A stretch of 64,000 nucleotides of DNA from an uncultured Ignisphaera sp. (GTDB taxonomy: Archaea > Thermoproteota > Thermoprotei_A > Sulfolobales > Ignisphaeraceae). This document shows, piece after piece, positions 6,985 to 27,890 of the stretch. Within the stretch, counting starts at the first letter, position 1; each line of letters starts with the position of its first letter. Where the stretch lies: the NCBI GenBank assembly GCA_938074605.1, contig CALJEI010000002.1:62001-126000 (forward strand). The letters are read 5' to 3'. Position numbers and translations under genes: made by a program. A model generated the notes under the pieces. The model worked only from the letters and a program-made list of their open reading frames with translations. It was not told where the DNA came from and did not search any database.

Positions 6985-7968
6985 TTATCCCTTTATCTTT
7001 AAAAGATATTTATATGCTGCATCTGCTGCTATTGCACCTTCTGCTGCTGCTGTTATTATCTGTTCAAATCTATATTTATGTTTTCCACCAGCAACATCGC
7101 CACAAGCATATATTCCTGGAAGATTTGTACTCATATCATGATTTACAGCAACATATCCCATTTCATCAAGTTCTAGACCTATAGATTTTAGTAGCTCTTT
7201 TGGAGGTTCTGAACCTATCTCTATAAAAACTCCATCAACCTCCAGAATTTTCTCCTCACCCGAAATAACATTTCTTATCCTTACTCCAGTTACCTTATTC
7301 TCACCAAGAATTTCAACAACAATACTATTAATAATAGGTTCTATTTTTTGATTGCTCCTAATCTTCTCTACATAGTATGGGAATGCCCTAAAGCTATCTC
7401 TTCTATGTATAAGATAAACCTTTTTAGCAATTGTTGCAAGATATAGTGCACTTGTAAGAGCAGAGTTTCCTCCACCAACAACAGCAACAACCTTGTTTCT
7501 AAAGAAAGGCCCATCACAAATAGCACAATAGGATATACCACGCCCTATCAATCTATCTTCACCAGGAACATTAAGTCTTCTTTTAATACTTCCTATAGCT
7601 AGTATAACTATATAGCTACATAACCTCCTACCACCTTCTGTCTCAACACACCAAACATTATTTTCTCTAGTAATAGTTTTAACAGAATCTCCTACAATTA
7701 TTGGTACTCCATATTTCTTCACATGCTCTTCAAACATTTCAGCTAATTTAACTCCAGGAACACTTGGAACCCCAGGATAGTCGTCAATAAGAGGTGCTAG
7801 AGCCATTTGTCCACCAATATCCTTACTTACTATAATTACATTTACATTAAATCTAGCAAGATATATTGCTGCTGTTAAACCAGCTGGTCCTGCACCAACT
7901 ACAATACAGTCATATACCCCCCTAGATTCCCTAGGTACGTCAAGTCGAAATCTACTCAACAAAACCAC
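6985..7968 (-). CDS. trxB: Thioredoxin reductase (NADPH type)
   Basis: 327-residue flavoprotein disulfide reductase. FAD-binding GAGPAGLTAA lies near residue 25, the redox pair is CAIC at 148-151, the NADPH Rossmann motif is GGGNSALTSA near 165, followed by HRRDSFRA, whose arginines read the NADPH phosphate, and a second FAD motif GIYACGDVAGG near the C-terminus. All parts of the low-molecular-weight enzyme are intact, in contrast to the paralogue at 26862-27842. It should reduce a thioredoxin or glutaredoxin-like protein in the cytosol. The start is GTG at 7968; the next good start would remove the N-terminal extension of about 15 residues. It is a single-gene unit with its own TATA box. Confidence 0.92.
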   Translation of the reverse strand: MVLLSRFRLDVPRESRGVYDCIVVGAGPAGLTAAIYLARFNVNVIIVSKDIGGQMALAPLIDDYPGVPSVPGVKLAEMFEEHVKKYGVPIIVGDSVKTITRENNVWCVETEGGRRLCSYIVILAIGSIKRRLNVPGEDRLIGRGISYCAICDGPFFRNKVVAVVGGGNSALTSALYLATIAKKVYLIHRRDSFRAFPYYVEKIRSNQKIEPIINSIVVEILGENKVTGVRIRNVISGEEKILEVDGVFIEIGSEPPKELLKSIGLELDEMGYVAVNHDMSTNLPGIYACGDVAGGKHKYRFEQIITAAAEGAIAADAAYKYLLKIKG

Positions 7969-17390: not shown

Positions 17391-18221
17391 GTGGTGAAGG
17401 TAGATGCCTCTCCAATACTAAAAAATATTGGCGAAGAGCTGAATCAGATACAGAACATAGCTATAAATGCTAGAAAGAATCTAGTTCTAATGCATAGATG
17501 TGATAAACATATCCATATGGCTTCCTCTCTAAGCAGCATTGACATAATAGCTGCTCTTCTCACGAAGTATATTAAGAGGGATGCAAATCCCTTAAACAAG
17601 GACTGGTTTATATTAAGTAAAGGTCATGCAGCTCCAGCTTTATATGCTGTCTTGACAGAAATTGGTGTTATACCAAAGGATGAGCTTATCAAAATAAATA
17701 GTATTAACTCTATTCTACAGAATCACCCTGATGTAGATTCGCCAGGAGTAGATATGGCTACAGGTAGTCTTGGACAGGGTCTAAGTTTTGCTATAGGTAT
17801 AGCTACCTGGATTAAGTATAGAAATGGTAGGGGGAGAGTATTTGTACTGATAGGCGATGGCGAACAGGATGAAGGTCAAATATGGGAGGCTATAACACAT
17901 GCAGCCACACTTAAACTTAATAACCTTATAGTCATTGTTGACTGGAACTGTTCCCAACTTGATGATGTAACTGAGATAGTTAAACCTAAGTACTATCTAC
18001 CATTTGTGTGGAGTGCTATTGGATGGAGGGTCCTATGGTGTGATGGACATGATGTAATAAGTATTGTAAGCACAATTAACGAAGCTCTAGAGTCAAATAG
18101 ACCTACAGTAATCTTTGCAAAGACTATACACAATCATGGAGTAGATCTAAATAGTGATAGCCTTAGTCAAGCTGTAGAGGAGCCTATAGATGGAGGCAGT
18201 ACAATTAACCGGAATGCGTGA
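17391..18221 (+). CDS. tktA: Transketolase, N-terminal (TPP-binding) half
   Basis: 276-residue N-terminal half of a split transketolase. It binds thiamine diphosphate and Mg2+: [13 protein letters not shown] near residue 150 with NLIVIVDWN about 30 residues on forms the GDG...N cofactor motif, and [11 protein letters not shown] near 84 is the conserved histidine segment. Works with the next gene as a heterodimer to move two-carbon units between sugar phosphates. First in the aromatic cluster, it probably makes erythrose-4-phosphate for DAHP synthase. The start is GTG at 17391: an ATG at 17380 is in another frame and stops after five codons. The stop overlaps the next gene by 32 bases. Confidence 0.92.
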
Positions 18222-19149
18222 TGTGATTGGAGAGATTTTGATTGAACTTGGTAAAGAAATTAGTGATCTTGTAGTAATAACTGCTGATGTTGGAAAACCA
18301 ACAAGAGTCTATAACTTTGGCCAAAAATTTCCAGATAGATACTATAACGTAGGGATAGCTGAACAGCATATGATAGACTTTGCAGCTGGTTTAGCATCTG
18401 CTGGAGCACTACCCATAGTTGCTGCATTTGCAATGTTTATTTTAAGAGCTTGGGAGCAGATAAGAAACACTGTAGCTAGAATGAATCTGAATGTAAAGAT
18501 TGTGGCCACACATGCTGGATATAGCGATCATGCAGATGGATCAAGCCATCAAGCTCTTGAGGATATAGCGGTTATGCGTGTTATACCACATGTAAATGTT
18601 GTTGTTCCTGCAGACATAGCCGATATAAGGAGAAGCTTTAGAGCTATAGTAGCTGAAGTGAGGGGACCTGTATACTACAGAATTGGAAGAGATTATGCAC
18701 CACCAATAACTGAGGATCACAACTATGAATTTACTCTTGGAAGAGCGTATACGCTAAGAGATGGCCATGATGTTACAATAATTGGTGCTGGCCCAATACT
18801 ATACGAGGCTTTAATTGCAGCTGAAATGCTAAAAAAGATGGGTGTTAGTGCTTCAGTTATCAATCTTCTATCTATTAAACCAATTGATGTTGATACTATT
18901 GAAAAGACTGCAAGAGCTACAGGTAGAATTGTAACTATTGAAGAACATGTGATTTATGGAGGTATAGGGAGTGCTGTTGCAGAGGTTATTGCTGAAAGAT
19001 ACCCTGTTCCAATGAGATTTATAGGTGCTAAAACCTTTGGCAGATCTGCAAAAAGTGTAAGAGAACTTCTAGATTACTTTAACATAAATAGCAAGGCTAT
19101 TGTGAAGACTTGTCTAGAGGTTATCAAATATGGTGATAGAAGAGCTTAG
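18190..19149 (+). CDS. tktB: Transketolase, C-terminal half
   Basis: 319-residue partner subunit holding the pyrimidine-binding and C-terminal domains of transketolase. [16 protein letters not shown] near residue 56 contains the glutamate that activates thiamine diphosphate; [17 protein letters not shown] near 117 and the C-terminal [16 protein letters not shown] near 257 are typical. A 1-deoxyxylulose-5-phosphate synthase-like enzyme or dihydroxyacetone synthase is less likely given the split archaeal form and its place with aro genes. ATG 18190 lies inside the end of the N-half gene, with GAGGAG upstream, so translation is coupled. Its stop overlaps the next gene by 20 bases. Confidence 0.92.
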
Positions 19150-20170
19150 AAGAAATATAGATGAAATTGATAAAAAAATTATTCAATTGATAGGTAAGAG
19201 GCTAGAAATAGTACAGAAAATCGCTGAGGTAAAAAATATTGAGGGTAGAAGTATATCGGATAATGAGAGAGAGCTAACTGTTAAAATGAATTGGAAAAGA
19301 TTAGCAGTAGAATACAATGTACCAATTGATATGGCTTCAGCATTAATAGAATTAATAATAAAATATTCAAAAAGTCTACAGATCCATTCAAGAATTAAAG
19401 AGAAGATACAAAGATCTATAACATTTATTGGATATGGGAATATGGCTAGAGTACTCGCTAGACAACTTATTAAAGCAGGTCATAGTGTGGTAATAACTGG
19501 AAGAAACCTAGATAAAGCTAAGAAATTGTCTAGCGATCTTGGATGCTCCTACATGGATGTAGAATCCGCTACTAGATTTGGAGAATATATAGTCCTAGCT
19601 CTACCATTTAACGCCTTTACAAGTGGGTACGTAGATGAAGTGACTGTATATTTTGAAAATAAAGTAGTTATGGACATTCTTTCATCTAAGTCATGGGTAT
19701 TTAACTATCTTGAGCATAAATCACTATCTAAAAACTTTATGTATATATCTACACACCCACTATTTGGACCTCTTACACCACCTATTGGCGAAAAAATAGC
19801 TATAATACCATCTAAATCTAGTGTTGCTGTAATTCAAGATGTGGCTAACCTATGGCTTTCAGCTGGCTTAGAACCTATTATAGTGAGTTTCGAGGAACAT
19901 GAAAAAGCAATGGCTATTGTGCAAGTTCTTACACACCTATATCTTATGGCTTTTTCAAGAGCTTCTGAAAAACTTTCACAGGAACTAGGTATTGGTAATG
20001 TAGATAAACTTTCAACTCCAACATATAGAGAAATTAAAGCTATCGTTGAAAAACTTAAACATTTAAAGGATGTTGTTCTTGAAATTCAGAAGGTAAATCC
20101 CTTTTCAACATTTGTAAGAAAAGAGGCTATTGAGATTTTAAAGAATGTAGTTGAAAGTCTAGGTGAATAA
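19130..20170 (+). CDS. tyrA: Chorismate mutase-prephenate dehydrogenase fusion
   Basis: 346-residue two-domain enzyme. Residues 1-85 are an AroQ-type chorismate mutase ([26 protein letters not shown]), which turns chorismate into prephenate. Residues 95-340 are an NAD-dependent prephenate dehydrogenase, with Rossmann motif [12 protein letters not shown] near 98 and the catalytic HPLFGP near 205. Product is 4-hydroxyphenylpyruvate for tyrosine. Placing the branch enzyme near the head of the chorismate genes is unusual but fits one transcription unit. No ACT domain is seen at the C-terminus, so tyrosine feedback, if any, must act elsewhere. Confidence 0.9.
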
Positions 20171-20172
20171 AT

Positions 20173-21162
20173 ATGCTATTTATTTTGAAGGAAGGCTCCC
20201 AATATTCATCACTGATAGAAAAGATAAGAGATTCCTCAGCATCATATAGGGTTGTAGATATATATGGATTAAAGCTTGTTGTTGCTTGGCCTGATAGCCT
20301 AGTTGAGAAAATTGAGGATCAGTCAATAAAGGTTAAAATAAAGGTTAAAAGACCCTACCAACTAGCATCAAATGAATGGAGAGATAAAACAATAGTTAAT
20401 GTAGGTGGTATTGAAGTTGGTGGAAGAGGTATAGTTGTAGCTGCTGGCCCTTGTGCTGTTGAAGATGAGGAACAGATGATGGAGATAGCAAAGGCTGTTA
20501 AAGGAGCTGGTGCCCATATGCTAAGAGGTGGTGCATTTAAACCTAGAACTAACCCCTACTCCTTCCAAGGACTTGGTGAGGAGGGTTTAAAGATACTTAA
20601 AAGAGTATCAGATTCTGTAGGTCTACCTATAGTTACAGAGCTTATGGATGTAAGAAATGCTGGTCTTATAGCCAGATATGCTGATATGATTCAAATTGGT
20701 GCTAGAAATGCGCAAAACTATACCCTTCTTAGGGAGGCTGGTAAACTTAATAAGCCTATACTTTTTAAGCGTGGATTTGGTATGACTGTTGAGGAATGGA
20801 TTTTGTCTGCTGAATATATACTTCTAGAAGGTAATGGTAATATAGTTCTATGTGAAAGAGGTATAAGAACATTTGAGAAAAGTACTAGGTTTACTCTAGA
20901 TATAGCTGGATTTGCAGTAGCAAAAACACTTACACATCTACCTATAGCATTAGATCCAAGTCATCCTGCTGGTAGAAGGGATATAGTTGAACCACTTGCA
21001 CTAGCAGGTATAGCAGCTGGAGCAGACATGCTTATAATTGAAGTTCATACAAACCCTGAAAAAGCTCTAAGTGATTCTGAACAGCAATTAAATATAGAGC
21101 AATTTGAAAATCTTATGAAGAAAGCTAAGGCTATTGCTAAAGCTATAGGGAGATATATATGA
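20173..21162 (+). CDS. aroF: DAHP synthase, type I-beta
   Basis: 329-residue 3-deoxy-D-arabino-heptulosonate-7-phosphate synthase, the first step of the shikimate pathway (PEP plus erythrose-4-phosphate). Metal and substrate motifs: AAGPCAVED near 92, RGGAFKPRTNPYSFQG near 118, LFKRGFGMT near 200, and DPSHPAGRR near 262. Residues 1-65 form a ferredoxin-like N-terminal region like that of the Thermotoga enzyme, where it senses tyrosine/phenylalanine, so feedback control is possible. The organism uses this classical route rather than the aldol-type bypass of many euryarchaea. Two bases separate it from tyrA, and it shares ATGA with aroB. Confidence 0.95.
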   Translation: MLFILKEGSQYSSLIEKIRDSSASYRVVDIYGLKLVVAWPDSLVEKIEDQSIKVKIKVKRPYQLASNEWRDKTIVNVGGIEVGGRGIVVAAGPCAVEDEEQMMEIAKAVKGAGAHMLRGGAFKPRTNPYSFQGLGEEGLKILKRVSDSVGLPIVTELMDVRNAGLIARYADMIQIGARNAQNYTLLREAGKLNKPILFKRGFGMTVEEWILSAEYILLEGNGNIVLCERGIRTFEKSTRFTLDIAGFAVAKTLTHLPIALDPSHPAGRRDIVEPLALAGIAAGADMLIIEVHTNPEKALSDSEQQLNIEQFENLMKKAKAIAKAIGRYI

Positions 21163-22223
21163 GAGTAGTAGAAGAATCTATATGTTGTTCAAATACAAAA
21201 GTATTTATAGGTAGAGGTATAGTTAGGGAGATTCTAGAGAAGGAGATTAATGGTAATGTCCTCATAGTTAGACAAGATGCTGTTGATCCAAAATATGTTA
21301 TAAGTACCCTAAAGACTAAACCACATGAAATTGTTCTACCTGGAGGCGACCAAATAAAGGATATAAATATAGTTATGCAAATTATACAGCTTCTTTCTGA
21401 AAAAGGGTTCCAAAGAAGAGACTATATAATTGCCCTTGGAGGAGGAGCACTTACAGATGTCGCAGGATTTGCAGCCTCTATATATATGAGAGGTATTAGA
21501 TTAATAAATATACCTACAACAATACTAGGTATGGTTGATGCTGCCCTTGGTGGTAAGAATGCTGTTAACTTTCATGGTATTAAGAATATTATAGGCTCAT
21601 TCTACCAACCACACATTGTTATATCCGACTTAATATATTTAGATACTCTACCTAGAAAAGAATTCATAGGCGGTCTTGCCGAAGTTATTAAATATGGTGC
21701 TACACTAGACTATGAACTATTTAAATATCTATCTAGTAATAGCACTAGAATTTTAGATAGAGATTATGAAGCTATTGAATACATAGTATATAGGTCAACA
21801 ATAAATAAACTATCTATAGTTAAACACGACCCATATGAGTTAAAAAACGTTAGAATTGTTTTAAACTATGGCCATACAGTTGGACATGCTATAGAGGCTG
21901 TCACAGGATTTGCTGTACCACATGGCATGGCTATAGCTGTTGGTATGGTGTGTGAGGCTATTATTGGAGAAGGTATTGGTATTACGGAGAAAGGTGTTGT
22001 TGATATTCTTGTAAATATTCTAAAAATGTATGGTCTTCCCACATCACTAAGAGAACTTAATATTAGAGTTGAACAAGAAGTTCTATTGAATGCTATGCTA
22101 AAGGATAAAAAGAGGCATGGTGACTATATATATCTCCCAATACCAACATCATTGGGTTCGTGGACCCCCTATAAAATTTCAATTAATGAAATGAGGTCTG
22201 CTATAGAAAAATGTCTTGGATAA
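21159..22223 (+). CDS. aroB: 3-Dehydroquinate synthase
   Basis: 354-residue NAD- and metal-dependent enzyme that cyclises DAHP to 3-dehydroquinate. LGGGALTDVAGFAA near residue 92, IPTTILGMVDAALGGKNAVN near 120, GGLAEVIKYG near 172 and the metal ligand segment NYGHTVGHAIEA near 232 are conserved. Length is normal. Starts in an ATGA overlap with aroF and overlaps aroE by 13 bases. Confidence 0.95.
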   Translation: MRVVEESICCSNTKVFIGRGIVREILEKEINGNVLIVRQDAVDPKYVISTLKTKPHEIVLPGGDQIKDINIVMQIIQLLSEKGFQRRDYIIALGGGALTDVAGFAASIYMRGIRLINIPTTILGMVDAALGGKNAVNFHGIKNIIGSFYQPHIVISDLIYLDTLPRKEFIGGLAEVIKYGATLDYELFKYLSSNSTRILDRDYEAIEYIVYRSTINKLSIVKHDPYELKNVRIVLNYGHTVGHAIEAVTGFAVPHGMAIAVGMVCEAIIGEGIGITEKGVVDILVNILKMYGLPTSLRELNIRVEQEVLLNAMLKDKKRHGDYIYLPIPTSLGSWTPYKISINEMRSAIEKCLG

Positions 22224-23008
22224 ATATAGATACAAAATTATTTGGATTAATAGGCCATAACATATCGTATACACTATCACCAGCAATACACAACTATGTA
22301 TTTCAGGAGGTTGGATATAATGCCATATATCTAGCATTTGATGTAGCTAGAGAAAAATTTGATAAGATTATTCCTGCACTGCTAGAGTTGTGTGAAGGTC
22401 TTAATGTTACTATACCGTATAAAGAGGAGGTAATAAAGTTTTTAAATGGTATTGACCACAATGCTGAGAAAATAAACGCTGTAAACACTATCCATAGAGG
22501 ATATGGGTATAATACAGATTATATAGCTATTAAGAGTCTTGTAATGGAGAGAATGGAGAATCTTGAAGATATGATATGTTATATCTATGGGGCAGGTGGG
22601 GCTGCAAAGGCTTCCGCCATAGCATTAGGGGATCTTGGATGCAAACTCTATATTGTGAATAGAAGTATTGAAAGAGCAATAACGTTTGTTAAAAGACTTA
22701 ATAATCTAGGATACAAAGCGTATGTAGGGGATAGATGTCTGGATAAAGTTGATGTTGTTGTAAATGCAACTCCAAATCCATCATTTGTACACGATAACTG
22801 TCTTACAGCAAAGCTTGTTGTAGAACTTGTTTATAACCCTGTTGAAACTGTATTGATTAAAAAAGCTAGAAGTAAAGGTATAGAGGTTATTGATGGTATT
22901 AAGATACTTGTGAGACAGGCTTTAGAGGCACAGAAAATATGGAATGGTATAACATTTTCAGAGGATAGAGTTATTAGGTATCTCTATGCCAGGAAACTCA
23001 TTCGGTAA
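22211..23008 (+). CDS. aroE: Shikimate dehydrogenase
   Basis: 265-residue NADP-dependent enzyme converting 3-dehydroshikimate to shikimate. [18 protein letters not shown] near residue 12 binds shikimate; [10 protein letters not shown] near 65 holds the catalytic lysine and INAVNTI near 88 its neighbour asparagine; YNTDYIA near 100 has the catalytic aspartate; [12 protein letters not shown] near 125 is the dinucleotide motif. Overlaps aroB by 13 and aroC by 23 bases. Confidence 0.95.
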
Positions 23009-24158
23009 ACTATTTAAGATTACAACCTTTGGAGAAAGCCATGGACCTGCAGTTGGCGTTGTAGTAGATGGTGTTCCAGCTGGTTTACCCCTAGATAGTA
23101 GTGATATTGAGTATGAACTCTCCTTCCGTAGGCCTGGCTATAGAATGGTTTCTCCGAGGATGGAAGAAGATAGAGTAGAGATATTATCAGGTGTATTTAA
23201 TGGTAGAACTACAGGAATGCCCATAACAATTATAGTAAGAAATACAGATATTGATTCCTCCTACTATGAAGAAATAAGGTTTTCACCAAGACCTGGACAT
23301 GCAGATCTTCCATATATTACCAGATATGGGTTTGCGAATTGGGATTATAGGGGTGGTGGAAGAGCTAGTGGTAGAGAGACTGTTGCAAGAGTTGCCGCTG
23401 GTGCTATAGCGAAGAAGTTGCTAATGGCTTTAGACGTGTGGATTGCCGGATGTATAGTGTCTATAGGAGATGTTGAAATAGTTGATGAGATAGTGTTTGA
23501 AGAAGCTCTCAGCTCTAGGTGTAGTCCTGTTAAACCATGTCTAAAAAAGTATGAAAAGATATTCATCGATATGATTGAAAATATTATAAAGGTAGGTGAT
23601 AGCTATGGAGCTATTGTACAAGTGTTTGTAAAGAATCCCCCTGCTGGATTAGGCGAACCTGTATTTGATAAAATTAAGGCTGATCTTGCTAAGGCTGTAA
23701 TGTCTATCCCAGGCGTTGTAGGTTTTGAAGTAGGGCTTGGATTTAAGTATGCAAAAACTAAAGGTAGTAGTGTACTAGATGAAATTGTGGTTAAAGATTC
23801 TGGAATTGGTTGGCGTTATAACTATAGTGGTGGTATATTGGGCGGTATTACAACTGGTGAGCCCATAGTGTTTAGATGCGCATTTAAACCAACTAGCTCT
23901 ATAAGGATGCCGCAAAAAACAATTGATTTAAGGACGCTAGAAGAAAAAACAATATCCATTAGGGGAAGACATGATCCATGTATAGGTATAAGGGGTGTTG
24001 CTGTTGTTGAAGCAATGACGGCACTTGTAATTGTTGACCATGCAATGAGATCTGGACTTATACCCTTAGTAAAAATACCTGATAGTATAGCAGATACCAT
24101 CTCCAATAGATGGAAGCGGTATAGAGAGCTATGTATGCATATGGGGGAATCTCAATAG
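22986..24158 (+). CDS. aroC: Chorismate synthase
   Basis: 390-residue FMNH2-dependent enzyme that turns 5-enolpyruvylshikimate-3-phosphate into chorismate. Signatures: [14 protein letters not shown] near residue 17, [13 protein letters not shown] near 47, RPGHADLP near 101, [16 protein letters not shown] near 121, and [17 protein letters not shown] near 329. Length and all histidines are as expected. It needs reduced FMN from another protein, since this monofunctional form has no NADPH oxidoreductase domain. Overlaps aroK by 28 bases. Confidence 0.96.
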
Positions 24159-24916
24159 TAAATGCTATACCAGCATGGCTTGGCTCTGTAATAGCCATAA
24201 ATCTTAAGGTTCATACCGAGGTTAGTTTATGTAAATCTATATGCAGATATCAATCACCACTTATAGAGACTATAGCAAACTATTTTATGAAAAAATATGC
24301 TTTACCTCCACTTAAGATAGACATACATTCAGAAATTCCACAGGCAAGTGGTCTTAAGAGTAGTAGTGCTGTTGCTGTAGCAACAATTAAAGCTATAATC
24401 CATAAGTTCAATATATATGAGCCATCAATACCAAGATTAGCTGCAGAATTATCGAAAATAGCTGGTGTGTCTATCACTGGTGCATTGGATGATGCTGCAG
24501 CAGCTTTCTATGGAGGTGTAGTATTTACAGATAATCTAAATATGCATATACTTAATGTTAGTGATTTTAGAGATGATCTCAATGTAGTTCTACTGTTTAA
24601 AGACAGTAGAAAGAATGTAGATGTCGAGAAAATGCGAAGACACTACCATGTATTTAAATATATATTTGAGGTAGCCTATTCAGGCAATATATTTAAGGCA
24701 ATGACAATGAATGGTATTTATATTGCTAGAATATTGGGATATGACGAAAATATAATTTGGAGAGCCATTGAGTTAGGAGCTTTAGCAGCTGGTGTATCAG
24801 GTAATGGACCAACAATATTTGCTGTATGTAGAGAAGGTGATGGTGGTCCCATTATAGACTACTTCTCTACATATGGTACTGTAAAAGTAGCAAAACCCGT
24901 TAGAATTTCATTATAA
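24131..24916 (+). CDS. aroK: Shikimate kinase, archaeal GHMP type
   Basis: 261-residue kinase of the GHMP superfamily, unrelated to the bacterial P-loop shikimate kinase. ATP-binding motif [16 protein letters not shown] lies near residue 69 and the C-terminal GHMP motif [12 protein letters not shown] near 223. It phosphorylates shikimate at O3. The N-terminus [16 protein letters not shown] matches archaeal AroK. The long overlap with aroC and its place before aroA remove doubt about function. Confidence 0.92.
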
Positions 24917-24946
24917 AATGATTAGCTCCAAGTAATGGAGATAAAA

Positions 24947-26182
24947 ATGAGAGCTATAATAAAAAAATCTATTATTAAAGGCTCTATAGCAGCACCTCAG
25001 TCAAAAAGTTGGGCAATAAGATTACTATTCTTATCTTTGTTAACAAACATTGAATTAAATAATTTAGTTTTATCAGAAGATATATTGGATGCTCTAGATG
25101 CTATAAAGGTGTTTAATGTTACTATTAATGGAAGTAGGTTCTATAAACCAATGTTACTTAAACTACATAGTACCTACACATTTTTTAGAGGATCTGCAAC
25201 AGTTTTACGAATGTTTATACCAATAGCGGCGGTAATTGGTGGAAGAATTACTATTGATGGTAGTGAGAGTCTTAGAAGAAGACCCCTAAATGCTATAATT
25301 GAAGCATTGAGTGAAAAGGGGGTAATATTCTCTAGCACTAGTCTTCCAATTACTATGGAGGGAAGGATTAGAGATCCATATATTGAAATATATGGTGGTG
25401 AAAGTAGCCAGTATATCTCAGGCCTTATGATAGCATTAATGATAGCTGGAGGTGGAACTATAAAAATTAGGGGGAAAGCTGCTTCTAGAAGCTATATAAA
25501 TTTAACAGCTGAGCTTATAAACAGTCTAGGTGGGACTGTCCATATATATAGCAATAGGATTGATGTTGAGCCTTGCAAAGATATAGCTCCATATATAGGC
25601 TCTATACCTGGTGACTATCTTTTAGCGTCATTCTATGCTGCAGCTGCTATACTATCAGATGGCTATATATCTATATATGGATTGCCAAGACCTTATAGCT
25701 TTTTTGGAGACCATAGTATAGTTGACATATATAGATCAATGAATGCAGTGAGTATGTATAGAGATGGTGTTTGGTATGTTGAGTCTAGCGGTAGCTATAG
25801 AGCAATAGAGATAAATATTGATGATTCACCTGATCTAGCACCCTCTATAGCACCTCTAGCTGCAGTGGCTAAGGGAACTACAATTATTAGAGATGTTGAA
25901 AGACTTGCAATTAAGGAAAGCAATAGAAGAAACACAATAGTTTTAGCACTAAAAAGCTTTGGTATTGAAGCTTATGATAGAGAAAACTATATTGAGATTA
26001 TAGGGGGCAGCCCTAGAGAGGGTAGAATTATTTGCCCAAATGATCATAGAATTGCTATGATGATAGCATCAATAGCTGTTAGAAGCAGTGGAGTAATAGA
26101 CAATGCTGAATGTATATCTAAAAGCAATCCCTATTTTTGGAGAGACCTAAAGTTAATTGGAGGAAGAATTTATCTAAGTTAA
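24947..26182 (+). CDS. aroA: 3-Phosphoshikimate 1-carboxyvinyltransferase (EPSP synthase)
   Basis: About 411 residues; transfers enolpyruvyl from PEP to shikimate-3-phosphate. APQSKSWAIR near residue 15 is the substrate-binding N-terminal motif, FRGSATVLRMF near 75 replaces the usual GNxGT segment, DDSPDLAPSIAPLAA near 285 has the catalytic aspartate, and CPNDHRIAMM near 365 is the C-terminal motif. ATG at 24947 is preferred because GGAGAT lies five bases upstream; ATG at 24935 would overlap that site. The glycine-loop difference may matter for glyphosate sensitivity, but that is inference. Confidence 0.93.
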   Translation: MRAIIKKSIIKGSIAAPQSKSWAIRLLFLSLLTNIELNNLVLSEDILDALDAIKVFNVTINGSRFYKPMLLKLHSTYTFFRGSATVLRMFIPIAAVIGGRITIDGSESLRRRPLNAIIEALSEKGVIFSSTSLPITMEGRIRDPYIEIYGGESSQYISGLMIALMIAGGGTIKIRGKAASRSYINLTAELINSLGGTVHIYSNRIDVEPCKDIAPYIGSIPGDYLLASFYAAAAILSDGYISIYGLPRPYSFFGDHSIVDIYRSMNAVSMYRDGVWYVESSGSYRAIEINIDDSPDLAPSIAPLAAVAKGTTIIRDVERLAIKESNRRNTIVLALKSFGIEAYDRENYIEIIGGSPREGRIICPNDHRIAMMIASIAVRSSGVIDNAECISKSNPYFWRDLKLIGGRIYLS

Positions 26183-26211
26183 TAAATCTCATAGGTATTA
26201 GGTGAATATAT

Positions 26212-26865
26212 GTGGAAAGATTGAATAGACCATTTATAGTTGCATCAAAGCCTATTTTAAACATACAGGATTTGAGAATAGCATTAGCTATAAATGATGC
26301 AGATTTTATTGAGCTTAGAATAGACTATATGGATAACCCACTAGAGATAGACTATAGTTTACTAAAGGATAAAAAAGTTATTGTAACACTTAGAGAATTT
26401 AATGAGGGTGGTGCAAAGCTTCATGACCCTAATATCAAAATAGAGCTACTAAAAAGATTAAGAGATCTAGGAATACTATATGATGTTGAGGTATCCTTTA
26501 TAGAGAGATTTAATGTTGAATACAATAATGCAATTGTATCTATGCACTTTATAGGTTTAAAACCTAATATAGATTATGTAATAGAGAAGGTGCTTAGATA
26601 TAGGGATAGGGCATTCATTGTAAAAATAGTAGTAGAGCCATTCCCTGGATATAGAAACTTTTTAATTCAACTTCTTGAGCTTGGAGAGAATATAGCTGCC
26701 TTCCCAATGTCAATAGATCCTCTAGAAAGAATAGCATATGCATTACTAGGTTCTAAACTAATCTACGGCTATATAGATACACCAACTGCCAAGGGACAGC
26801 TACACTATAGACAATTAAAAGAGTTAATAAACCTGATACATAACATTATTAACAAAAATATCTAG
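26212..26865 (+). CDS. aroD: 3-Dehydroquinate dehydratase, type I
   Basis: 217-residue class I dehydroquinase, forming 3-dehydroshikimate through a Schiff base. The catalytic histidine is in IVSMHFIG near residue 104 and the Schiff-base lysine in FIVKIVVEPF near 137. IELRIDYMD near 38 binds substrate. The start is GTG at 26212 with AGGTGA seven bases before it; the ATG two bases earlier stops after four codons. Last gene of the aromatic run; it overlaps the convergent TrxR-like gene by four bases at their stops. Confidence 0.92.
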   Translation: MERLNRPFIVASKPILNIQDLRIALAINDADFIELRIDYMDNPLEIDYSLLKDKKVIVTLREFNEGGAKLHDPNIKIELLKRLRDLGILYDVEVSFIERFNVEYNNAIVSMHFIGLKPNIDYVIEKVLRYRDRAFIVKIVVEPFPGYRNFLIQLLELGENIAAFPMSIDPLERIAYALLGSKLIYGYIDTPTAKGQLHYRQLKELINLIHNIINKNI

Positions 26866-27842
26866 AGTCTAAATAACCTTCTTTGCTGAGATACCCCACT
26901 CTTCTTCCAATCACTTACAAAATTTTTCACAATACCTCTCCTTCTATTAACATAATTTATAGCAGATAATGCAGCTATTACACCACTTGCCGCTGATACT
27001 ACCGCCTGTTTATATGGCATATCTACTAGATCACCTGCTGCAAATAGACCTTCAGTTTTTGTAGTACCATATTTGTCTACCACCACCTCATTCCTCTCAT
27101 TTATATCTACATACGGTTTTAGAAAATCTATTTGGGTTTCAAAACCCAGTTCAATAAATAGAGCATCAACATCAACAACTTCTCTATCTCCATTCCCATT
27201 CATAACTACAATCTTCTCAAGTTTCTCATCCCCATATAGTTCAACAACTCTATAGCCTGAGTACACAGATACATTACCGTACTTCACCGCCTCCTGTATA
27301 CTTACATCAGTTTTTGTTGGCACTATATAGATTAGCTCTTTAGCTATTGGCGCTAGGAGATTTAGAGCTTCAATACCATTTTCACCAAAGCTATTTAGAG
27401 CTATCCTTCGACCCTTATACAGCGGCCCATCACATACTACACAATAGCTAAGTCCTTTACCAATAAAATTCTCCTCACCCCTAACCCTAAGTTTTTTAGG
27501 AGCTTTTCCACATGCTGCAATTACACTTAGTGATTCTAGTATGCTTCCCCTTCTCGTCTTTACAATAAATATTCCTTCACTTTTATTAAGCAGTATTACT
27601 TCATCTATAAATATTTCAGCACCAAATGCTATAGCCTGTTTCTGTACCTTTAATACTAGATCTAGTCCACCAATCAATTCTATACCAGGATAATTCTCAA
27701 TAACATTAGCATACCTCAATTGTCCTCCAACATCCATTGTTATAATTGCTGTTCTAAGCCCCTGTCTTGCTGTGTATAAAGCTGCTGAAGATCCTGCTAT
27801 TCCACCCCCTATAATAATAACATCATATAATTCTTTATGCAT
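26862..27842 (-). CDS. Thioredoxin-reductase-like flavoprotein lacking NADPH motifs
   Basis: About 326 residues from the ATG at 27842 (GTG at 27869 is the outer limit). It has the FAD motif GGGIAGSSAALYTARQG, the redox pair CVVC, and GLFAAGDLVDMP near the C-terminus, so the flavin and disulfide centres are intact. The central Rossmann domain is changed: NSFGENGIEA stands where the true reductase has GGGNSA, and VPTKTD replaces HRRD. Related archaeal proteins that lack these motifs do not use NADPH and may take electrons from ferredoxin or another donor. It lies 20 bases or so after an amidohydrolase gene on the same strand. Donor and partner are unknown. Confidence 0.85.
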   Translation of the reverse strand: MHKELYDVIIIGGGIAGSSAALYTARQGLRTAIITMDVGGQLRYANVIENYPGIELIGGLDLVLKVQKQAIAFGAEIFIDEVILLNKSEGIFIVKTRRGSILESLSVIAACGKAPKKLRVRGEENFIGKGLSYCVVCDGPLYKGRRIALNSFGENGIEALNLLAPIAKELIYIVPTKTDVSIQEAVKYGNVSVYSGYRVVELYGDEKLEKIVVMNGNGDREVVDVDALFIELGFETQIDFLKPYVDINERNEVVVDKYGTTKTEGLFAAGDLVDMPYKQAVVSAASGVIAALSAINYVNRRRGIVKNFVSDWKKSGVSQQRRLFRL

Positions 27843-27890
27843 CTCAGATACACTAATTAAGTAAAACACTAGGTAACTAATAGGGATTTG

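Follow-up and report, generated by a model that had tools for sequence, protein, structure and literature searches.

A family of archaeal thioredoxin reductase-like proteins with lost NADPH-site residues and a conserved Asp-Trp tail: candidate ferredoxin-fed enzymes

Two thioredoxin reductase-like proteins are encoded in the window (the whole 64,000-nucleotide stretch of DNA analysed here), and one of them raises the question of which electron donor could feed a reductase that has kept its flavin site and redox-active cysteines and lost the residues that grip NADPH. The first-pass annotation of this DNA had proposed that this protein should not use NADPH in the normal way, that its relatives take electrons from ferredoxin or another donor, and that the occurrence of both forms in one genome reflects two electron routes to thiol proteins. 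We have followed these proposals through the sequence family, its C-terminal tail, its gene neighbours and the genomes that carry it.

Loss of the NADPH-site residues at the locus and in its family

The reading frame of the target gene is intact, with a Pfam Pyr_redox_2 match at 85.6 bits (Table 1). Residue numbering throughout follows the 335-aa form that begins at the GTG; orthologues such as L002 and L009 seem to start nearer to the internal ATG at 27842 than to the GTG. Identity to the canonical reductase of the window is 30% over 296 columns. Against TIGR01292, the NCBIfam equivalog model for NADPH thioredoxin reductases, the canonical protein of the window passes the cut-off of 343.45 bits with a score of 349.6; the target stays below that cut-off at 247.5 bits, as do four of its orthologues at 291-309 bits. 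By their sequence, the flanking genes appear to be AroD-like (convergent) and amidohydrolase-like (upstream on the target's strand). A gene run at 17391-26865, presumably a nearly complete shikimate (aromatic amino acid) pathway judging by sequence, ends convergently at the target, and its gene order is largely kept in loci L031, L034 and L036.

Table 1. Coordinates in the window of the target gene, its motifs and the comparison protein (residues numbered from the GTG start).
Feature	Position	Strand	Remarks
Thioredoxin reductase paralogue without NADPH motifs, CDS	26862..27842	(-)	326 aa from ATG
Same ORF from GTG start	26862-27869	(-)	335 aa
FAD-binding GxGxxG, reads GGGIAG, residues 21-26	27792..27809	(-)	kept in target
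Redox-active CVVC (Cys143, Cys146)	27432..27443	(-)	
SFGENG, residues 160-165, replaces NADPH pyrophosphate loop GGGNSA	27375..27392	(-)	
PTKT, residues 184-187, replaces 2'-phosphate-binding HRRD	27309..27320	(-)	
C-terminal tail, residues 313-335	26865..26933	(-)	absent from the canonical thioredoxin reductases compared
Tail Asp320-Trp321, conserved	26907..26912	(-)	aligned with Asp-Trp of Gloeobacter FFTR
Canonical thioredoxin reductase, same genome, comparison protein (GGGNSA, HRRDSFR)	6985..7968	(-)	

Of 147 genomes searched within the order, 39 hold a clear orthologue of the target, defined as a match of at least 200 bits (incomplete or in fragments in G061, G119 and G136), and the best 30 of these orthologues, when aligned, all keep CxxC and all lack HRR. 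A decaying pseudogene was considered for the target and rejected, as intact orthologues share its motif changes; chance or decay is unlikely to account for the substitutions because the same ones recur in the 30 orthologues of the order. A search of genome contigs gave 511 relatives, of which the best 80, retrieved by patterns drawn from conserved stretches of the family itself, were the ones read; they fall in Thermoproteota (39), Thermoplasmatota (25), Nitrososphaerota (11) and Geothermarchaeota (2), with three assigned to no phylum. The 30 order orthologues together with 78 of these named loci (the 80 minus L136 and L144, both cut before the tail) gave 93 distinct family sequences once duplicates were removed. 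As canonical controls we used the 30 proteins that best matched the canonical reductase of the window.

HRR is present at its site in none of the 93 family sequences, the target included, while all 30 canonical controls have both GGG[ND]xA and HRR, and five more distant canonical proteins (L171-L174 and L177) also carry HRR. CxxC is present in all 93. The FAD loop is less uniform, at least 25 of the 93 reading GGA or GGS-xAG instead of GxGxxG; in the target both the FAD motif and CVVC are kept. These results bear out the first-pass annotation on the retained flavin and cysteine motifs and on the loss of the NADPH motifs relative to the reductase at 6985-7968. The motif pairs it had drawn were essentially correct but shifted by one position, with SFGENG facing GGGNSA and PTKT facing HRRD, and the loss of the glycine loop, which it had given as NSFGEN for GGGNSA, is partial, the third position of the target's loop still being Gly. 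Normal use of NADPH, which it had doubted, does indeed appear unlikely from the loss of HRRxxxR.

What the remaining loop might hold is a separate matter. Gly stands first in the loop in 67 of the 93 sequences and Ser in the other 26, among them the target, and the third position is Gly in 92 of 93, so that some nucleotide may still bind. The kept glycines favour the main rival to a ferredoxin-fed enzyme, namely a thioredoxin reductase that depends on NADH, or takes NAD(P)H in a relaxed way, having lost the arginines for the 2'-phosphate (a loss to be expected where NADH is preferred) while its Rossmann loop goes on binding the dinucleotide; in the target itself, however, the first loop Gly is lost. 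An acidic residue replacing the His of HRR is a hallmark of NADH use, and neither Asp nor Glu stands at that position in any of the 93 family sequences; the first-Arg position is Pro in 49 of them. The loss of HRRxxxR is in itself compatible with NADH use, because the thioredoxin reductase of Thermoplasma, which also lacks HRRxxxR, was re-examined and reported as NADH-dependent (cited in PMC6262447). Yet that enzyme keeps GGGNSG and has Glu at the His position, and no Asp-Trp is seen in the portion of it that aligns, which ends 8 residues short of the end of the chain. On balance we consider dependence on NADH unlikely for the target.

At locus L092, a 634-aa ORF joins the reductase to a protein of about 300 aa that has a membrane-like stretch, either because a stop is missing or as a real fusion; its contig is labelled Calditenuaceae, yet it groups with Pyrobaculum in the tree. 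Long ORFs such as L092 and L099 looked like candidate fusions, and no redox domain was recognised when their upstream parts were read. An archaeal thioredoxin reductase-like protein at L166 (genome G006, family f6) also has no HRR (loop GNDDHA, then VIPHAD) and has no tail, and is a separate, non-canonical type.

The Asp-Trp tail, the tree and the structure models

Beyond the last helix, 92 of the 93 family sequences carry a tail with Asp-Trp, the exception being L141 (among the 78 named loci with the tail region, 77 have it), whereas none of the 30 canonical controls has Asp-Trp in its last 60 residues. In all 107 sequences measured (duplicates included), 32 or 33 residues separate the KQ of the FAD motif from this Asp, compared with 29 in the ferredoxin-dependent flavin thioredoxin reductase (FFTR) of Gloeobacter violaceus, the protein of PDB entries 5j60 and 6xtf (PMC8469568). 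A profile built on the final 58 positions aligned the family's Asp-Trp to that of chain 5j60 with an E-value of 6.6e-9, a value that rests mainly on the helix common to all thioredoxin reductases, tail-less AhpF scoring higher; 5j60/6xtf is the sole thioredoxin reductase-like chain, among those listed, whose match to the tail profile reaches the Asp-Trp. Full-length alignment with hhalign also pairs the two Asp-Trp motifs. The use of KQ (for RQ) in the FAD motif as a marker of FFTRs was rejected, AhpF and other NADPH enzymes sharing it.

Trp315, in the tail of the Gloeobacter enzyme, forms a pi-stack with the other subunit's FAD. It has been proposed to move away during turnover and is described as a "determinant for catalysis" (PMC12796991, PMC8469568). 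The Asp-Trp of chain 5j60 stands at residues 317-318, and we take residue 318 as the Trp315 of these papers through an offset of +3, inferred from the chain length of 320 against a last residue of His317. Such a tail is unnecessary for ferredoxin use, since the Clostridial FFTR is without one (PMC8469568). Two genomes that appear to be ammonia-oxidiser-like (L161 and L162, in G176 and G341 of families f16 and f48) also carry the Asp-Trp tail. In the reductases of L161 and L162 the redox pair reads CTKC, and they form a deep branch of their own in the tree.

A maximum-likelihood tree of 78 rows, tail columns included, was built from 144 by taking every second family row, every third canonical row and all others. 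A branch with full support separates the family from the rest, and adding the ammonia-oxidiser-like forms, the f44 forms and three more members gives a 54-row group (100/97) whose nearest outside row, L165, is tail-less and has GGGNSA and HRS (100/98). Judging by its sequence, then, the target is a member of a distinct archaeal clade that extends over Thermoproteota, Nitrososphaerota, Thermoplasmatota and Geothermarchaeota. Gloeobacter FFTR and Thermoplasma thioredoxin reductase group instead with bacterial and methanogen enzymes, and forcing Gloeobacter FFTR into the clade gave a tree 21.7 log units worse (p-AU 0.0296), with FFTR represented by a single long-branched row. The archaeal family and the cyanobacterial FFTR have perhaps evolved separately, as a case of convergence, to the extent that one long-branched FFTR row can place the latter.

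AlphaFold monomer models have the thioredoxin reductase fold, with mean pLDDT of 81 and 85. Both fold in the closed form, with the tail at pLDDT below 50, and as single chains they bear only on contacts within one subunit. The best matches among solved structures are NADPH enzymes at rmsd of about 3 (for the target model against 3F8R chain B, Z 33.9 and rmsd 3.3 over 299 residues). 5j60 does not figure in the VIA list of structural matches, to which we attach no weight as evidence. Foldseek matches 5j60 to the model at rmsd 13.7, which we read as a different angle between the domains of the model and of 5j60.

The most probable account of the target, in our judgement, is that it is an FFTR-like archaeal thioredoxin reductase fed by ferredoxin rather than NADPH, with the Trp321 tail positioned at the flavin. 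Ferredoxin is the likely donor because the NADPH-gripping residues are lost and the tail Trp resembles that of the ferredoxin-fed cyanobacterial enzymes. In the proposed cycle, reduced ferredoxin (here of the 4Fe-4S type) would dock beside the flavin and reduce the FAD in two one-electron steps while the Trp321 of the partner subunit is stacked on the flavin; the tail would then leave and the CVVC domain rotate in, whereupon the reduced FAD would reduce the Cys143-Cys146 disulfide, and the resulting dithiol would pass its electrons to a thioredoxin or a PDO-type protein. The stacking across the dimer, ferredoxin as donor and thioredoxin or PDO as acceptor are all predictions.

Gene neighbours and genomes with a single reductase

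Gene neighbours offer a view of possible partners in part of the family. At all 25 Thermoplasmatota loci (among the best 80 of the 511 relatives), and also in the ASS_A1 genome, the gene next upstream of the reductase and in the same direction encodes a thioredoxin with WC[GA]PC, which matched PF00085 in the two cases tested; the gap between the two genes is within about 30 bases or the genes overlap, except at L148 (about 425). A Rieske ferredoxin gene lies directly downstream of the reductase in six of the 80 named loci, all in Thermoplasmata (L128, L133, L146, L148, L149 and L150). The Rieske-type ORF overlaps the reductase stop in five of these six, and the one tested matched PF00355 with an E-value of 7e-12. 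Only one set of Thermoplasmata has this neighbour, perhaps through a single event. Beyond the thioredoxin gene, a divergent gene is seen in 22 loci (for example L131 5117-5491 (-) and L121 5077-5463 (-)); it is a possible regulator, TrmB/MarR-like in the one tested (L131).

The Rieske neighbour and the Asp-Trp tail bear on a further alternative, in which some other non-nicotinamide donor, such as F420H2, flavodoxin, a hydrogenase or another flavoprotein, reduces the FAD. Archaeal thioredoxin reductases have been reported as F420-dependent in M. jannaschii and as hydrogenase-linked in Thermococcus onnurineus (PMC7278568), and the 2'-phosphate region varies among non-NADPH thioredoxin reductases (PMC5627308). 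The tail, and the Rieske gene beside some relatives, point instead to a one-electron iron-sulfur donor, and we regard the other donors as rather improbable.

Neither an upstream thioredoxin gene nor a downstream Rieske gene was seen in the Thermoproteota neighbourhoods read; a partner conserved across lineages was found in none of 20 order neighbourhoods, and a partner recognisable by cysteine motifs in none of 15 further ones. Genes for GcvH and NADH-dehydrogenase-like genes recur near the reductase in Pyrodictiaceae, and we draw nothing firm from this. The same holds for L140 and L159 (the latter on the same contig as L192), where a 90-aa ORF with two Fer4 domains lies about 2.3 kb off and a 102-aa ORF with WCKDC about 3.1 kb off, both on the other strand. 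Within the genus, the reductase often sits between biosynthetic gene runs. The window's own genome contains no Rieske match; it holds small 4Fe-4S ferredoxin-like ORFs of 75, 87, 107 and 135 aa and two thioredoxin-fold matches, a 188-aa frame over the cut-off and a 242-aa frame below it, the latter being, from its size, a putative PDO.

The first-pass annotation had read the two forms in one genome as two electron routes. Both do occur together here and in many Sulfolobaceae-like genomes; elsewhere, though, the target form is the only intact thioredoxin reductase that was found. Within the order, an intact canonical enzyme is absent (the best canonical-query E-value being weaker than 1e-80) from 17 of the 39 family-bearing genomes, six of them at least 95% complete; in one of the six, G024, a broken canonical copy remains. 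We also picked 21 genomes in which earlier searches had shown one match or no canonical one, and which were therefore likely cases. In all 21 the canonical protein matched the family member best, and in 18 (five in f7, eight in f21 and five in f32) the family member was the only intact thioredoxin reductase-like protein found, the next match in these 18 genomes reaching at most 75.6 bits against about 275 or more for the canonical enzymes of the order. In G153, the next match belongs to a canonical copy broken into three pieces, and three f20 genomes hold a second, divergent thioredoxin reductase-like protein at 143-152 bits. From their tree position, f21 appears to be Thermoproteaceae-like and f32 Thermofilales- or Thermoproteales-like.

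In a phylum sample of 397 genomes, counted by eye, 80 have a clear family member (E-value of 1e-106 or better). For 42 of those 80, with five candidates scored in each genome, no other candidate reached 1e-60; this figure is too high by at least three as it includes the three f20 genomes. Some near-complete genomes, for example G075 and G125, have neither form, so that absence of the canonical enzyme is not special to the family. Where the target form is the sole intact reductase found, it may therefore be a replacement enzyme and not merely a second route. Remnants of a canonical reductase stand at G024:C7:9213-10096 (L167) and G153:C1:1213546-1214248, with the family member intact in both genomes; either genuine decay or faulty assembly may account for these remnants.

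A last alternative holds that the protein is not a thioredoxin reductase in the cell but a dithiol-flavin protein working otherwise, for example as a disulfide sensor, an oxidase or a DDOR-like enzyme. That the Thermoproteota neighbourhoods read show no conserved gene for a thioredoxin partner, and that in the genus the gene often sits between biosynthetic runs, would fit such a role. The thioredoxin gene next upstream at every one of the 25 Thermoplasmatota loci argues against it, as does the presence of the family without a canonical reductase in several families of genomes. The thioredoxin-contact motif G[RK]G, moreover, occurs in 82 of the 89 sequences (of 95) where the pattern was readable, the target having GKG. 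We hold this alternative to be very improbable.

A probable ferredoxin-fed reductase among known systems

A ferredoxin-type donor thus stands as our best guess, in agreement with the donor named first in the first-pass annotation and pointed to by the Asp-Trp tail and by the thioredoxin and Rieske neighbours of relatives; NADH use keeps the small probability that we have given it. A broader reading, which we put forward tentatively and rate somewhat below even chances, is that archaea of four phyla, namely Thermoproteota, Nitrososphaerota (ammonia-oxidiser-like members included), Thermoplasmatota and Geothermarchaeota, have a thioredoxin reductase of independent origin that is fed by ferredoxin and gated by a tail Trp, that it replaced the NADPH enzyme in whole families, and that in some Thermoplasmata it belongs to a one-operon chain of Rieske ferredoxin, reductase and thioredoxin. 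If this is true, thiol control in those families would be tied directly to ferredoxin, as it is in photosynthetic cells.

Electron supply to thiol proteins in thermoacidophilic and hyperthermophilic archaea is described mainly via the NADPH enzyme, a view that a widespread ferredoxin-fed reductase would alter. Ferredoxin is indeed abundant and a key electron carrier in Sulfolobus (PMC2946596). The family would be a second, possibly convergent, case in which a stacking tail Trp marks the swap from NADPH to ferredoxin, and its signature (no HRR, tail Asp-Trp) would allow the re-annotation of proteins that now stand under the general name of thioredoxin reductase. FFTRs are known from cyanobacteria and clostridia (PMC12796991, PMC8469568, PMC9025218), and a review of archaeal thiol systems assigns them to 'certain bacteria' (PMC7278568). 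We found no description of an archaeal FFTR, or of a tail Trp in an archaeal thioredoxin reductase, in open-licence PMC text; subscription papers lay outside the search, and an earlier account is possible.

Among known systems, the closest in kind is Gloeobacter FFTR, which shares with the target the FAD, the CxxC, the tail Asp-Trp and the absence of HRRxxxR (FFTR reads TPKD, its Pro standing where 49 of the 93 family sequences also have one), at 30% identity over 305 columns. It differs from the family in grouping with bacterial enzymes and in having its tail 3-4 residues closer to KQ, and its use of ferredoxin is demonstrated whereas that of the target is predicted. Within the Archaea, TrxB2 of Sulfolobus solfataricus (WP_010923960.1), listed as a 'putative non-NADPH TR' (PMC5627308), is probably an orthologue of the target, since, wherever an f11 genome gave a further match beside its canonical B3-like enzyme, that match was a member of the clade; the available text of that paper describes no tail, distribution or mechanism for it. 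A possible further member is saci_1169, which is named TrxB and rises 6.1-fold under 1-butanol (PMC8208165); it is saci_0931, and not this gene, that is orthologous to SSO2416 (PMC12529230). The canonical NADPH thioredoxin reductases (the protein at 6985-7968 in the window, and SsTrxB3, 3F8P/3F8R) share fold, FAD and CxxC with the target and differ from it in HRRxxxR, in the full GGGxxA loop and in having no Asp-Trp tail. The reductase of Thermoplasma acidophilum (3CTY), archaeal and without HRRxxxR like the target, is set apart by the kept GGGNSG, by its Glu at the His position and by a place outside the clade. DvTRi of Desulfovibrio vulgaris is an NAD(P)H-independent reductase that coexists with a canonical one, and TRi is said to be absent from Archaea (PMC5627308); the target, reading PTKT, lacks the TQ/NGK motif of DvTRi. 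DDOR, finally, lacks the thioredoxin-contact GR/KG motif (PMC9025218), and so differs from the target, in which that motif is present as GKG.
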